Shown: in pieces, positions 13,159-16,904 of the stretch
Layout: each line of letters starts with the position of its first letter
How positions within the stretch are numbered: the first letter of the stretch is position 1
Program-made: the position numbers and the translations under genes
Notes under the pieces: generated by a model
What the model saw: only the letters and a program-made list of their open reading frames with translations
The model's database searches: none
What the model was told of the DNA's origin: nothing
NCBI GenBank assembly: GCA_943329165.2
Contig: CALQCV020000014.1
Location: forward strand, 1 to 17,587
DNA: 17,587 nt
DNA from: Candidatus Nitrotoga sp. CP45
GTDB lineage: Bacteria; Bacteroidota; Bacteroidia; Flavobacteriales; Flavobacteriaceae
Direction of reading: 5' to 3'

Positions 13159-13199
13159 GTTTCAAAATTACTCAAAATTATCGAAGCGTTTAAAAATAA

Positions 13200-13225
13200 A
13201 AAACTCCTCTGAAAAGAGGAGTTTT
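13200..13225 (-). terminator. Hairpin terminator with no visible gene of its own
   Basis: AAAACTCCTCT-GAAA-AGAGGAGTTTT is a perfect 11-bp stem. On minus it is followed by TTTTTTATTTTT. It lies upstream of the GH53 gene and left of the cassette array, and nothing immediately to its right on minus would need it, so its gene may have been lost. The rest of 13159-13345 holds no coding sequence; TACATTTG at 13332-13339 is an exact -7-like box facing the array, but without a well-spaced -33 box. Confidence 0.7.
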
Positions 13226-13345
13226 CTGTAGCTGCCAACCGAAACCATGATGATTGTTTCTAGTAAAAGAAAATGTACCGCCCTTAAAAGTTTCTTTTAT
13301 TTTCTAATTTAGATTTGTAGTAATATTATATTACATTTGAAAAGA

Positions 13346-13425
13346 ATAAAGCGAAACAAACCTTCGTGTATACAACCCATTTTGGGTGGATTTGCGAATG
13401 TTTGTTTCGGGTATAAACGAGTTAT
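13346..13425 (+). repeat. First, atypical recombination-site-like hairpin at the left edge of the array
   Basis: CGAAACAAACCTTCG (13352-13366) pairs with CGAATGTTTGTTTCG (13395-13409) at 14 of 15 positions, with a nested ACCCA/TGGGT hairpin at the tip. It is followed by GTTATAGGC (13421-13429), the same right-end motif as the three full sites of the array. On the left, ATAAA (13346-13350) stands where the others have ATAAC. It is shorter (80 bases against 128-130), so it may be a degenerate site or the primary insertion site of the array. Confidence 0.5.
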
Positions 13426-13453
13426 AGGCTATTTTACTAGAAATCCGAAACAA

Positions 13454-14569
13454 ATGAAATTGAAAAAAGCGTACTTAATACTTCTTCTCTTTACTTGCTT
13501 TTGTTTCGCACAAGAAAAAACAAACAATACATTTCATTTAACAGTTTCACCAATAGTAAACCAAACTAAAACTTTGAATTTAGAGATTATTTCTACTTTA
13601 GAAAGTTTTCTAAAAACTAAAAATGATTCATTGATTTACAATAAACATTGGTCAAAGGATGATTTTAAGAACTATATTTTTCCATATATAGACATTTACA
13701 ATATTGAACAAAGCAAACTTGGAAATGATTTTTATAAACCAACTTTAATTGAAATTATCGACACGGATGATGAAAATTGCAAAATTCTAAAAATCGCATT
13801 TATTGGCCATAACGCTGAAAAAAACGAAAACTTTTTAAAGGTGATTTACAATATTGTGGCAACAAAAAGTAATAATGAAATCATGCTTAGCAGATATCTA
13901 AACATAATCGATAAAGAATGGAAAAGTTTAAAAGCTGGGAAAATAAATTATAAAATTTCACCCAATAAAACACCAAATTATAATGATATTGAAAAACAAA
14001 AATTAGAGATCAATAGAATTTGTAATTTTTTTAATACTGAAGAATTAGAAATAAAATACTTTTCCTGTGTTAATCCAAAAGAAGTATTTGAAATAAAAGG
14101 TTTTGATTATAATCCACTTATGTATATTGATAAAACTGGCGGTTTGGCTGATTATGGAAATATTATTTTTTCTGGAAATAATTCTGAGATTTATACACAT
14201 GAAATTATTCATATCTACACTTCAAAATTATTTCCAAACAAAAACAATTTCTTGGATGAAGGAATTGCAATGTATTTAGCTGGAAGTGGAAAATATGATT
14301 TTGATTGGCATAAAAAGAAAATGAAAGCATTTCTTGAAAAAAATCCTAGCCTTAACTTAACTGATTATTTTGATATTTATTCAAGAGAATATATAGAAAA
14401 TGAAACATCAATTCCATACATGGTGGCTGCTTTAATATGCGAAAGTACAATTACGAAATTTGGTAAAGAGAAACTTTTCGAGTTACTCAATAGCAAAGAC
14501 GATATTTGGAGAATTATACATAAAGTAGGATTGACAAAAGAGAATTTAAATAGAGAACTTCGAAAATAA
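13454..14569 (+). CDS. Exported metallopeptidase-like protein of cassette 1
   Basis: I chose the ATG at 13454, which opens a signal peptide (MKLKKAYLILLLFTCFCFA); 39 further codons upstream are open but run through the GTTAT boundary of the cassette and its hairpin. The 371-residue product shows H249EIIH253 and, 16 residues on, Glu269 in LDEGIAMYLAG. This HExxH plus downstream (D/E)EG-A-YL pattern is that of gluzincin zinc peptidases of the peptidase-MA-like type. The N-terminal 200 residues are Lys/Asn rich and resemble nothing I recognise. The protein probably acts outside the cytoplasm. The stop lies 5 bases before the start of the cassette end motif. No strong promoter is seen inside the cassette. 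The catalytic assignment rests on the motif only. Confidence 0.7.
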   Translation: MKLKKAYLILLLFTCFCFAQEKTNNTFHLTVSPIVNQTKTLNLEIISTLESFLKTKNDSLIYNKHWSKDDFKNYIFPYIDIYNIEQSKLGNDFYKPTLIEIIDTDDENCKILKIAFIGHNAEKNENFLKVIYNIVATKSNNEIMLSRYLNIIDKEWKSLKAGKINYKISPNKTPNYNDIEKQKLEINRICNFFNTEELEIKYFSCVNPKEVFEIKGFDYNPLMYIDKTGGLADYGNIIFSGNNSEIYTHEIIHIYTSKLFPNKNNFLDEGIAMYLAGSGKYDFDWHKKKMKAFLEKNPSLNLTDYFDIYSREYIENETSIPYMVAALICESTITKFGKEKLFELLNSKDDIWRIIHKVGLTKENLNRELRK

Positions 14570-14574
14570 AAAAC

Positions 14575-14713
14575 AGCCTATAACACTTGCTAAAACTTAT
14601 GGCTAGTTTTTCGGTATATTGTTCGTTTACTTTTAATAACTTCGCTCGGGCGGTTATGAAAAAAAAGCTTTCCATAAGCCGCCACAAGCTCTAGCAAGGA
14701 AACGTTATATGTG
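14575..14713 (+). repeat. attC-like site 1, end of cassette 1
   Basis: The core runs from ATAAC (14580) to GTTAT (14708), 129 bases. CTTGCTAAAACTTATGGC just inside the left end pairs with GCCACAAGCTCTAGCAAG (14681-14698), 15 of 18 positions Watson-Crick. A second hairpin, GGCGGTTATG with CATAAGCCGCC, lies within. The left end AGCCTATAAC is the exact complement of the cassette's own start GTTATAGGCT at 13421. About 93% identical to site 3 over the first 107 bases. Confidence 0.75.
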
Positions 14714-14740
14714 ATTTTTCCAAAATTTCTAAGAAACTAT

Positions 14741-14775
14741 TTGCTTGATTACCAAAATTTGGTAACTTTACCAAA
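14741..14775 (+). promoter_or_regulatory. Promoter and palindromic operator of the toxin-antitoxin pair
   Basis: TTG (14741-14743), 19 bases, then TAACTTTA (14763-14770; 5 of the 6 fixed positions of TAnnTTTG) form a promoter. The perfect palindrome TTACCAAA-A-TTTGGTAA (14749-14765) overlaps the spacer and the -7 box, and a third half-site TTACCAAA follows at 14768-14775. This fits autoregulation by the ribbon-helix-helix antitoxin. Confidence 0.7.
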
Positions 14776-14787
14776 AATGAAGAAACC

Positions 14788-15030
14788 ATGGGAAAAAACA
14801 CATCAATATCATTAGGAAATCATTTCGAGAGTTTTATAGAATCAACTGTATCTAAAGGTCGATTCAGCAACGCAAGTGAAGTAGTACGTGCTGGACTTCG
14901 ACTTTTGGAAGAAGAAGAAAGTCGCATAATTGTTTTACGAAATGCAATTCGTGAAGGAATTGAAAGTGGCCGCGCTGTTGACTTTGATCCGAAAAAACAT
15001 TTAGAAACTCTTAAGTCTAGAAAAAAATAA
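14788..15030 (+). CDS. ParD-like ribbon-helix-helix antitoxin
   Basis: The 80-residue protein has the ParD/CopG layout. A short N-terminal strand (NTSISLGNHFESFIESTV) pairs in the dimer to bind DNA, and the helix-turn-helix part (GRFSNASEVVRAGLRLLEEEE, about 24-44) is the family signature. A charged C-terminal tail (45-80) would wrap and neutralise the toxin. It overlaps the toxin gene by one base (TAATG), so the two are translationally coupled. A perfect palindrome over the promoter is its probable operator. The pair fills cassette 2 of the array, where such modules could stabilise the array. Assignment is by motif and context. Confidence 0.92.
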   Translation: MGKNTSISLGNHFESFIESTVSKGRFSNASEVVRAGLRLLEEEESRIIVLRNAIREGIESGRAVDFDPKKHLETLKSRKK

Positions 15031-15323
15031 TGGCCAAGTTTTATTTAAACAACAAAGCCGTTGATGATTTAAAAGACATTTGGGATTATACAGTAAAAAC
15101 TTGGTCTGAAAATCAAGCAGAGATTTATTACTTGTTACTTATGGATTCATGTCAGGAATTAGCAAATAAACCAAATCAAGGTAAGTCTTATGATATAGTA
15201 GAAAAAAATATATTAGGCTTTAAAACTGGTGAACATATTATTTTCTATCAAATAGTTTCTCTCGAAGAAATTGAAGTGGTTAGAATTTTGCATGGAATGA
15301 TGGATATCAAAAACCACCTATAA
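15030..15323 (+). CDS. RelE/ParE-family toxin
   Basis: The 97-residue protein matches the ParE branch of the RelE/ParE superfamily. It has FYLNNKAVDDLKDIWDYTV, typical of the first strand and helix, then W(S)ENQAEIYY, LANKPNQGKSYD, LGFKTGEHIIFYQIV and a closing EVVRILHGMMDIKNHL. ParE proteins poison DNA gyrase, whereas RelE proteins cut mRNA; the DIWDYT and RILHxxMD signatures point to ParE-like, but the target is not proven. It is encoded directly behind its antitoxin with a 1-base overlap. Its stop codon TAA is part of the ATAAC that begins the following recombination-site-like sequence, showing how tightly the cassette is packed. Confidence 0.92.
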   Translation: MAKFYLNNKAVDDLKDIWDYTVKTWSENQAEIYYLLLMDSCQELANKPNQGKSYDIVEKNILGFKTGEHIIFYQIVSLEEIEVVRILHGMMDIKNHL

Positions 15324-15456
15324 CAGCCGTTTGTAGCAACTGCGAAGCGCGCGCTTCTCTGGAAAATCCTGCGGATTTTCAAAAGGAGTTTTGTACTTGG
15401 AGTTTTTAGTGTTAAATTTATCGCAGCTGCTACAAGCGACACGTTATGAGCTATAG
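15315..15456 (+). repeat. attC-like site 2, end of cassette 2
   Basis: The core runs from ATAAC (15320) to GTTAT (15447), 128 bases. GTTTGTAGCAACTGCGA (15329-15345) pairs with TCGCAGCTGCTACAAGC (15421-15437) at 15 of 17 positions. Inner palindromes are GAAGCGCGCGCTTC and GAAAATCC-TGC-GGATTTTC. Its sequence differs from sites 1 and 3 but length and plan are the same. The left end pairs with the cassette start at 14704 at 14 of 16 positions. Confidence 0.75.
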
Positions 15457-15458
15457 CA

Positions 15459-15488
15459 TTGGAAATCCGTAAACAATTTATATCTTTG
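15459..15488 (+). promoter_or_regulatory. Promoter of the Fic gene inside cassette 3
   Basis: TTG (15459-15461), exactly 19 bases, then TATCTTTG (15481-15488), an exact TAnnTTTG box. It begins a few bases after the site-2 right end and stops 10 bases before the Fic ATG, so the leader is very short. Confidence 0.75.
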
Positions 15489-15498
15489 GTAGCATCAA

Positions 15499-16476
15499 AT
15501 GATAGCATCTATGAAGCCACCATATGAAATTACACAGCCTATTTTAAAACTTATAACTTCAATTTCTGAGAAGATTGGAGAAGTGAATGCTAACTATTTA
15601 AATAAGCAATCACCTACTCTACGCAAGCAAAACAAAATCAAGACAATTCATTCATCACTTCAAATCGAAGGAAATACACTTTCTCAAGAACAGATTACAG
15701 CGCTGATTGAAAACAAAAGAGTAATTGGTCCTGAGAAAGATGTAACCGAAGTTATCAATGCAATTAAAACATATGAAAAATTAGAGAGTTTCAAAGCTAC
15801 TGATGAAAAATCATTTTTAAATGCACACCAGATCATGATGAAAGGATTAATTGCTAATCCTGGTAAGTATAGAAATAAAAGTGTTGGAATTGTAAAAGGT
15901 TTAGAAGTTGCACATGTTGCTCCGCCATTTGAAAATGTTCCATTTTTGATGAAAGATTTATTCACTTATCTTAAAAAATCTGATGAAATAGTTTTGATAA
16001 AAAGTTGTGTCTTTCATTACGAAATGGAACTTATTCATCCATTTATTGATGGAAACGGAAGAATTGGAAGGTTGTGGCAAACAATTATTCTAATGGAAAA
16101 GTATCCAGTTTTTGAGTTTTTACCTTTTGAAACCTTAATCAACAAAACACAGAAAGAATATTATGAATCTTTAGCACTAAGTGATAAAGCAGGAAACTCA
16201 ACTGTATTTATTGAATATATGTTACATGTAATTGATCAATCGCTTGGTGAACTTCTAAATTTTAAAAATCGCACGCTTAAAGAAATGGATAGGATTGAGT
16301 ATTTTTTAAAAATTTCATCAAACCAATTTACTAGAAAAGATTACATGAACACTTTTAAAGACATATCGACAGCTACTGCTTCGAGAGATTTGAAAAAAGC
16401 AACAGAACTAAATCTTATAACGAAGCAAGGAAAAGATAATCAAACTGTTTACAACATAAACAGCTACAGCTCATAA
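15499..16476 (+). CDS. Fic family protein (predicted AMP transferase), cassette 3
   Basis: Fic enzymes move AMP or similar groups from nucleotides onto protein side chains. The active motif HPFIDGNGRIGR starts at His180 and is complete. An N-terminal inhibitory motif SSLQIEGN (Ser52-Glu57-Asn59) matches the (S/T)xxxE(G/N) helix that blocks ATP binding, so the enzyme is likely of the self-inhibited class with this helix before the Fic core. The last 60 residues (YFLKISSNQFTRKDYM, TATASRDLKKATELNLI) look like a winged-helix domain. Length 325 residues is usual for this type. A second ATG at codon 5 is possible; the promoter allows either. The stop TAA lies inside the ATAAC of the following site. 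Target proteins are unknown; roles in stress or phage defence are possible but not shown. Confidence 0.92.
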   Translation: MIASMKPPYEITQPILKLITSISEKIGEVNANYLNKQSPTLRKQNKIKTIHSSLQIEGNTLSQEQITALIENKRVIGPEKDVTEVINAIKTYEKLESFKATDEKSFLNAHQIMMKGLIANPGKYRNKSVGIVKGLEVAHVAPPFENVPFLMKDLFTYLKKSDEIVLIKSCVFHYEMELIHPFIDGNGRIGRLWQTIILMEKYPVFEFLPFETLINKTQKEYYESLALSDKAGNSTVFIEYMLHVIDQSLGELLNFKNRTLKEMDRIEYFLKISSNQFTRKDYMNTFKDISTATASRDLKKATELNLITKQGKDNQTVYNINSYSS

Positions 16477-16607
16477 CACTTGCTAAAACTCATGGCTAGT
16501 TTTTCGGTAAATTGTTCGTTTACTTTTCATAACTATGCTCGGGCGGTTATTGAAAAAAAGCTTTCCATAAGCCCGCCACATCGCAAATCTGCAAAACGTT
16601 ATCTGCA
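16464..16607 (+). repeat. attC-like site 3, end of cassette 3, near copy of site 1
   Basis: The core runs from ATAAC (16473) to GTTAT (16602), 130 bases. The first 107 bases match site 1 with about 7 substitutions and one indel. The last 23 differ: site 1 has AAGCTCTAGCAAGGAAAC before GTTAT, while site 3 has TCGCAAATCTGCAAAAC, which pairs poorly with its own left arm. The left end CTACAGCTCATAAC matches the complement of the cassette start at 15443 at 13 of 14 positions. Confidence 0.75.
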
Positions 16608-16904
16608 AGTTATCCTTGCAATAATTTAAGAAATGTATATGGAACTACAATTGACAATTCTAATGCCTACCACCAAAGGTCATTACTTAATTTCACAAAC
16701 GGTTTTAAATCAGATATTTTATTTGTTCAAGGATTAGATGATATGCCAATCCAAATGTATTCTTGGCCAACTTTTAAACAAGATGTATTAAGTTGTACAA
16801 ATTGCCAAAATCGTCAATTTGTTGAAATACCAGGAGGTCATACTGCAATTTTTCAAAGCCAAACAGCTAAGGCCGAATTCAATAATTTTATAAATAGTAG
16901 ATAA
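16599..16904 (+). pseudogene. C-terminal remnant of an alpha/beta hydrolase
   Basis: From the GTTAT of site 3 an open frame leads to TAA at 16902-16904, about 101 codons, with no start codon at a sensible place. The product SDILFVQGLDDMPIQMY followed by FVEIPGGHTAIF has the form of the last third of an alpha/beta hydrolase: the strand plus Asp loop (QGLDD), and the catalytic His in GGHTA. The N-terminal part with the Ser elbow is missing. The break coincides with the boundary motif of the array, so loss probably came from a recombination or deletion at the site. The gene is likely dead. It could be what is left of a fourth cassette, or a chromosomal gene cut by the array. Confidence 0.6.

Follow-up and report, generated by a model that had tools for sequence, protein, structure and literature searches.

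A cassette array on a flavobacterial contig

The window analysed here is the whole 17,587 nucleotides (nt) of contig CALQCV020000014.1 (C14 below), part of a 2.0-Mb assembly (GCA_943329165.2, filed as Candidatus Nitrotoga sp. CP45 and placed by GTDB in the Flavobacteriaceae) that is 77% complete and whose related genomes are mostly Flavobacterium. It carries an array of three adjoining, co-oriented gene cassettes, each closed by a folded site of 128-130 nt, and comparison with other genomes, mostly one per species, makes it highly probable that the array represents the cassette part of a gene-capture system of Bacteroidota which resembles an integron but does not use the integron integrase IntI. 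A sequence-only reading of the window had proposed three co-oriented units closed by sites running from ATAAC to GTTAT; its coordinates are borne out by the sequence, with limits at 14580-14708 (129 nt), 15320-15447 (128 nt) and 16473-16602 (130 nt), and by the covariance model R1 described below.

All features of the array lie on the forward strand; a vertical bar marks the point of crossover. The array begins with an attI-like site (13346-13421), an imperfect hairpin with arms at 13352-13377 and 13384-13409 followed by GTATAAACGAG|TT, with G 13421 as the crossover point (G|TT); the segment 13346-13430 folds with a z-score of -5.0. The anatomy first proposed is revised at this point, as its three cassettes stand but the array opens with an attI-like hairpin (13352-13409) and not with a cassette site.

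Cassette 1 (13422-14704) consists of an open reading frame (ORF, 13454-14569) and the attC-like folded site 1 (14581-14707; R1 score 104.8 bits, E 9.6e-18). The ORF encodes 371 amino acids (aa) with a signal-peptide-like start and an HEIIH motif, and matched no Pfam family. Cassette 2 (14705-15443) does hold the toxin-antitoxin cargo that had been read from the sequence, a ParD antitoxin gene (14788-15030) and a ParE toxin gene (15030-15323), ahead of folded site 2 (15321-15446; 46 bits, E 6.4e-6), which shares the fold of the others but is unrelated in sequence. In cassette 3 (15444-16598) a gene of the Fic/DOC family (15499-16476) is followed by folded site 3 (16474-16601), also matched by R1; all three sites were part of the set on which that model was trained. 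Sites 1 and 3 are the two near copies noted earlier, 92% identical over their left 108 nt behind unrelated genes, and differ at their right ends. A fourth cassette starts at 16599 and runs to 16905, opening with TTATCTGCAAG after G 16598 (G|TTATCTGCAAG), with an A at position 11 and a gene fragment inside; it has no closing site, and R1 has no match past 16601 on the contig.

A family of sites with a conserved fold

A blastn search with the window site found a further copy in the same genome, on contig C102, and site-like matches in 30 of the 299 genomes of the genus (its own genome counted). From pieces of at most 20 kb of genomes with such matches we took 30 training sites, chosen by their boxes, spacing and arms while the inner stems played no part in the choice, and aligned them with MAFFT to build R1, from which the arms were excluded. 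All 13 consensus pairs vary on both sides among these 30 sites. Paired cells amount to 89.7%, compared with 57.9% in shuffles, and the covariation score of 0.791 (0.211 in shuffles) was equalled by none of 500 shuffles; sliding the partners left 26-49% of the cells paired and a covariation score of 0.06-0.15. To judge from this alignment, the fold of the sites is conserved with little conservation of sequence.

R1 matches eight sites in the window's own genome, in two arrays: the three on C14 and five more that stand in one row on C102, a separate contig of 6.9 kb (L014). That the site might be a private repeat of this genome, as a blastn search of the family with one genome per genus had suggested by matching the own genome alone, was ruled out by the genus draw together with the covariance model.

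Across 133 R1 matches (what remained of 168 once two weak matches and 33 from duplicate loci were set aside), YAAC and GTTR stand exactly at the ends in 114, with about 122 nt between the left and right boxes. In the MAFFT alignment the stems measure 17/17 nt in 24 of the 30 sites, the left arm being longer in one and the right arm in five. No conserved extra-helical base was present in the 30 aligned sites, and the unpaired spacer is unequal in every one of them, with 2 nt on the left and 5-6 nt on the right. The attC consensus GTTRRRY fits only 2 of 87 cassette starts and 6 of 87 cassette ends, in agreement with the earlier suggestion of a separate family of sites. A blastn search of plasmids with a site gave no match, the sites being too diverse for it, and a single weak Rfam match in the window array (E 0.033, below the gathering score) was taken as chance.

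Cassette borders and pairing arms

Consecutive R1 sites at 23 loci bound 87 cassettes. R1 holds no arms, and we compared the first bases of each cassette with the reverse complement of the bases preceding its own closing site. Identity was 0.78-0.90 at positions 4-9, 0.62 at position 10, 0.05 at position 11 and 0.72-0.83 at positions 12-15, and lay at background level from position 16 on. Over positions 4-15 except 11, the controls gave 0.28-0.70 with shuffled partners and 0.22-0.71 for the in situ flanks of one site. Because an arm rule had led to 41 of the 87 closing sites in the first place, the test was repeated on the other 46 cassettes, for which the values were 0.67-0.83 (positions 4-9), 0.43 (10), 0.09 (11) and 0.63-0.70 (12-15); in 28 cassettes of other families they were 0.86-1.0, 0.46, 0.0 and 0.64-0.79, respectively. 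By comparison, then, a cassette follows the plan G|TTRnnnGnnA...gene...YAAC-folded site-CG|TT, its first 15 nt pairing with the stretch that directly precedes the left box of its own site. Cassette 1 of the window is an example, its start arm GTTATAGGCTATTTT pairing with its own end arm AAAACAGCCTATAAC.

Position 11 of the arm is A in all 87 starts and in 68 of them faces a C (G on the complement), which would leave a mismatch on the top strand and a G:T pair on the bottom strand. The mean folding energy of the bottom strand was -28.1 kcal/mol in the circle and -22.2 kcal/mol in the array, with -24.3 kcal/mol for the top strand of the circle; the circle was the more stable form in 78 of the 87 cassettes, and the bottom strand exceeded the top strand in 79. 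Because the start arm of about 15 nt pairs with the end of the same cassette, the site would be completed only in the excised circle, where the bottom strand is predicted to fold best.

A tyrosine recombinase adjoins the arrays of relatives

In Flavobacterium paronense a tyrosine recombinase of 347 aa, here called int, is encoded upstream of the first cassette. It belongs to a family of XerA-like tyrosine recombinases of about 350 aa with an N-terminal domain of about 65 aa. Matched to solved structures, int comes closest to XerA (4a8e, 1.3e-36; 5hxy, 1.7e-35), followed by IntI4 (2a3v, 1.4e-28). Its best curated profile is NF040815 (218.6 and 225.7 bits, cut-off 220), and the IntI profile TIGR02249, with a cut-off of 265 bits, gives two full int proteins 196.5 and 209.6 bits. 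The GLR and HxxRH motifs are 91-92 residues apart in the 39 parsable of 47 int proteins, unlike five IntI rows, which hold an insert of about 40 residues between them. An AlphaFold2 model of int shows no helix between residues 253 and 271; its predicted TM-score is 0.50, for which reason its whole-chain structure matches, with XerA and IntI4 first, are taken only to mean 'tyrosine recombinase'. In a tree of 54 rows, with IntI from Bacteroidota only and a bootstrap that had not settled, IntI forms one clade (100/100) and int a separate one (92/93). By these comparisons int lacks the IntI-specific additional domain (the I2 region). Public records name some of its relatives 'site-specific tyrosine recombinase/integron integrase'. 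The sequence-only reading had proposed a search for a tyrosine recombinase with the IntI-specific insert: none of the 299 genus genomes passes the TIGR02249 cut-off, and the int of the relatives is without the insert.

The same reading had stated that no integrase lies beside the array. For the window this is correct, and the int gene was not found in the window's genome, of which 77% is assembled; an adjoining tyrosine recombinase, of the non-IntI type, is found in relatives only. The window nevertheless keeps a probable vestige of the last int codons at 13303-13320 on the forward strand (TCT AAT TTA GAT TTG TAG; int of F. paronense ends ..SPFDDL-stop). Positions 13159-13421 align with the 3' end of int plus attI from F. 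paronense with a local score of 147, the maximum in 200 shuffles being 53; over the codons themselves the aligned stretch is short.

Behind int lies a motif made up of a hairpin and then TATAnAnnAG|TTR, which was found after 46 of 48 int gene ends (limited to proteins with the characteristic C-terminus, one gene being counted twice as L064 and L109), at 51-130 nt from the stop codon and at 88-105 nt in 41 of the 46. Apart from IntI genes, which are considered below, the motif occurs after 18 of 371 other ORF ends, 1 of 18 other recombinases and 4 of 9 members of a family of about 590 aa. An attI with its crossover at G|TT is, on this comparison, located next to the integrase.

Among loci fetched by their recombinase alone, an R1 site lies downstream and on the strand of the recombinase in 23 of 48 cases for int, in contrast to 0 of 12 for IntI and 0 of 18 for other recombinases, the median downstream sequence being 1215, 1497 and 876 nt, respectively. 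Ten int regions from other families all contained sites, which is no independent rate as they were drawn from genomes already known to hold sites; the 30 sites checked there all lie downstream of int on its strand (of 31 matches, one of 191 nt was dropped, and the attI of L235, mis-parsed, was scored as a miss). Ten IntI regions contained no R1 sites. The layout that emerges by comparison is int, an attI-like hairpin ending in TATAnAnnAG|TT, and then the co-oriented cassettes, all on the same strand.

Further recombinases were encountered in the course of this comparison. Ten open-frame recombinases of about 590 aa in Flavobacterium (L089, L091, L095, L098-L100, L102-L105) form a separate clade (100/100), are followed by another type of entry site, TATTTACTAG|TT, and have R1 sites downstream at three of the ten loci (L099, L100 and the cut-off L102); they are perhaps a second integrase for the same cassettes. 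Plasmids of Acinetobacter and Klebsiella encode a tyrosine recombinase (named TnpF in one of the records) that shares 54-55% identity with residues 131-347 of int. The window itself encodes a large serine recombinase at 453-2012, beside a DNA methylase fragment and with no obvious relation to the array.

Single cassettes differ between genomes at exact borders

Two genomes share a 656-nt cassette at 96% identity, and the sequences that flank it have an identity of only 0.26-0.27. It lies behind the attI-like TATACCCTAG in one genome and within an array in the other, and the identity spans exactly from the entering GTT to the closing GTT. A second pair of cassettes (96.5% identity) and a third (75%) have borders that behave alike; the whole-cassette search between genomes yielded four rows that represent these three pairs, so few shared cassettes being found because the sample holds one genome per species. 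In addition, 5 of 820 pairs of int/attI regions are 0.81-0.98 identical upstream and drop to 0.28-0.38 directly after G|TT. Gene differences between genomes do break at G|TT, as had been predicted, with the qualification that species-level genomes and not a strain series were compared. On this evidence single cassettes are exchanged with exact borders, the cases being few (three cassette pairs and five attI pairs).

One of the five int/attI pairs consists of two complete Chryseobacterium plasmids, of which one carries five R1 sites after int on the same strand and the other carries one. Inside the plasmid array we also noticed a group II intron with a reverse transcriptase (L236:22722-24464, reverse strand); group II introns within integrons have been reported.

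Distribution in Bacteroidota

Further copies of the sites, which had been anticipated in the own genome and in relatives, are present in both: besides the eight of the own genome, R1 matches occur in 128 of 395 genomes drawn across Bacteroidota (the phylum as in GTDB, which may include groups that others count apart), up to eight candidates per genome being scored. The surveys for int and for sites are assumed to cover the same 395 genomes, as number and handles agree. A close int (at least 53% identity) was found in 12 families of this draw, and sites occur in 37 of the 43 genomes that have a close int as against 91 of 352 others (Fisher 1.5e-14); the close-int set was picked by hand, and a partial match at 53% left out of it (G682, without a site) would make this 37 of 44. 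When any int match at 1e-50 is counted, the figures are 72 of 109 genomes and 56 of 286 others (9e-18).

IntI also occurs in Bacteroidota: of 375 genomes drawn, 100 pass the TIGR02249 cut-off, and some of these also hold int. An IntI-type match is listed for 103 genomes, none of which belongs to the genus or family of the window. IntI genes are in this draw commoner (100 of 375) than the IntegronFinder 2.0 survey suggests in the part consulted, where In0 elements and one complete integron, that of Salinibacter, are given for Bacteroidetes (PMC9024848). One site (L074:727-853, reverse strand) is on a contig filed under a Rhizobium assembly and sharing sequence with a Bacteroidetes contig, which is probably a binning error.

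Relation to integrons and other known systems

The resemblance to integrons is extensive. Both systems have a tyrosine recombinase beside a single entry site, co-oriented cassettes made of a gene plus a site, AAC/GTT boxes, sites that are folded imperfect palindromes, a crossover at G|TT, cassette starts that pair with their own site, and arrays without an integrase. The int system differs in its recombinase, which is of another clade and without the IntI-specific insert, in its boxes (YAAC/GTTR, without GTTRRRY), and in sites that have equal stems (17/17 nt in 24 of 30), no conserved extra-helical bases and an unequal outer spacer. In class 1 integrons the integrase gene is divergent from the cassettes, whereas int is on the same strand. 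Self-pairing of integron cassettes extends over 9-11 nt for most cassettes (PMC2727003), compared with arms of 15 nt and a fixed mismatch at position 11 in the int system. Clusters of attC sites lacking an integrase (CALIN) are recognised by at least two attC in 4 kb and no integrase; the window has three sites in about 2 kb and no int was found, but its sites are not of the attC family assumed there.

XerA resolves chromosome dimers. Archaeal XerA is the other point of reference, together with NF040815, the profile that fits int best; the name of this profile, 'site-specific tyrosine recombinase/integron integrase', serves as a label in annotation and says nothing of cassettes. A classification of tyrosine recombinases names XerA as the chromosome dimer resolvase and finds conservation of the insert to be incomplete in its integron-like subgroup; the string 'Flavobact-' is absent from its main text (PMC8138268). 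Nemergut-type surveys picked integrases by the additional domain (PMC2426708), and a standard integron finder demands a profile of the I2 domain (PMC9668308). In the literature searched, to which subscription journals and preprints did not belong, we found no description of an int/site cassette system.

The closest report concerns Riemerella anatipestifer, a member of Flavobacteriales. There, natural transformation brings aph(3')-IVb, which has an attC-like 3' stem-loop of 140 bp, into the chromosome although flanking homology is absent (PMC13148043). The element has a short 5' part and the folded 3' part of 140 bp and enters at one place, beside relE, by a mechanism that the authors left open (PMC13148043). 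In describing this uptake, that report mentions neither a recombinase nor an attI nor a family of sites, and the words 'recombinase' and 'integrase' are absent from its main text (PMC13148043).

Alternative explanations

Of several possible explanations, the one that survives best next to an integron-like system, and which we still regard as unlikely, is a recombinase that acts on double-stranded sites as XerC/XerD do, the fold serving otherwise, for example in transcription termination. Such a mode of action would suit an enzyme whose nearest solved structure is archaeal XerA and which lacks the I2 helix that cassette capture is held to require (PMC7790495). However, partner sites share GTTR only, and ordinary tyrosine recombinases have a central region of 6-8 bp (PMC2727003); nor does a role in the transcript explain arms that pair only in the excised circle and with a wobble on the bottom strand.

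It is quite improbable that the array is an ordinary, degenerate IntI integron of the CALIN type with drifted attC sites on which IntI acts in trans. Its anatomy, its AAC/GTT boxes and its toxin-antitoxin cargo would all agree with this, as would the IntI genes of the phylum, which 100 of 375 genomes carry, some of them alongside int. The genus and family of the window are nevertheless missing among the IntI matches listed, and none of 299 genus genomes reaches the cut-off; R1 sites follow int (23 of 48) and not IntI (0 of 12), GTTRRRY fits 2 of 87 cassette starts, and no extra-helical base is conserved. Least likely of all are transposon-like units moved by a transposase through unit-specific terminal inverted repeats, with the hairpin as a terminator: such repeats do flank the gene part of each unit and the site does follow directly behind the gene, but the units are head-to-tail with one GTT common to each junction, the right repeat precedes a site of about 122 nt instead of forming the outer end of the unit, and a single entry site adjoins a tyrosine recombinase while stems of a fixed 17/17 nt covary.

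We favour a system that works like an integron but stands outside the IntI family, because int has no insert, fails the IntI cut-off and forms a clade of its own, and because the sites have no conserved extra-helical bases and rarely fit GTTRRRY. Several observations weigh against this interpretation. The attI motif also follows 10 of 11 IntI genes, where the distances are scattered and most of the sequences near-identical, so that the motif alone is not specific, and 2 of 48 int ends are without it. About half of the int loci have no R1 site within the roughly 1.2 kb examined, and at one of them (L169) the site is upstream rather than downstream. Beside the ten IntI regions classical attC sites were not recognised, the pattern being too strict or the arrays absent, and the IntI control consequently says no more than that R1 sites are absent beside IntI. 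Of the 352 genomes that lack a close int, 91 still have sites, and 6 of the 43 with one have no site at the threshold used. The lone sites of the window fold with z-scores of -1.3 (site 1), -2.1 (site 2) and -0.8 (site 3) on the forward strand, which is not outstanding and constitutes weak evidence; the claim of a fold rests on the comparison of 30 sites. Finally, activity in the window's genome cannot be inferred because no int was found there.

Proposed mechanism and significance

In the mechanism we envisage for the int system, int would excise a cassette as a circle, and the completed site, arms included, would fold on its bottom strand into one long hairpin. The recombinase would then cut at the right-box GTT and, exchanging a single strand in the way IntI acts on attC, join the cassette to attI or to a further site. 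In attC the choice of strand is directed by extra-helical bases (PMC2727003), which the I2 domain stabilises (PMC7790495), so the absence of the I2 helix from int fits the absence of such bases from its sites. In the int system the bottom strand would be selected by the G:T wobble at arm position 11 together with the unequal outer spacer (2 versus 5-6 nt). The window's genome has apparently lost int by deletion, unless the gene lies in the missing part of the assembly, and the array would be a CALIN-like remnant that may itself be inactive.

We lean towards a further conclusion, held less firmly than the first, that these arrays represent a second integron lineage, in which a recombinase without I2 acts on folded, single-stranded sites without extra-helical bases. 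Such a lineage would either have an independent origin or be a living relative of a stage before I2 was acquired. The I2 helix is held to be necessary for cassette capture and to be found in no other protein (PMC7790495). If the conclusion is true, I2 and extra-helical bases are dispensable for cassette capture as such and are required only by the way in which IntI achieves it. A cassette system without I2 would escape integrase searches that are built on this domain, and the question whether recombination of folded sites preceded I2 becomes directly testable. For Bacteroidota, the int system would add a phylum-wide platform of gene exchange, with sites in 128 of the 395 genomes sampled, and it could explain the homology-independent uptake of genes in Riemerella.

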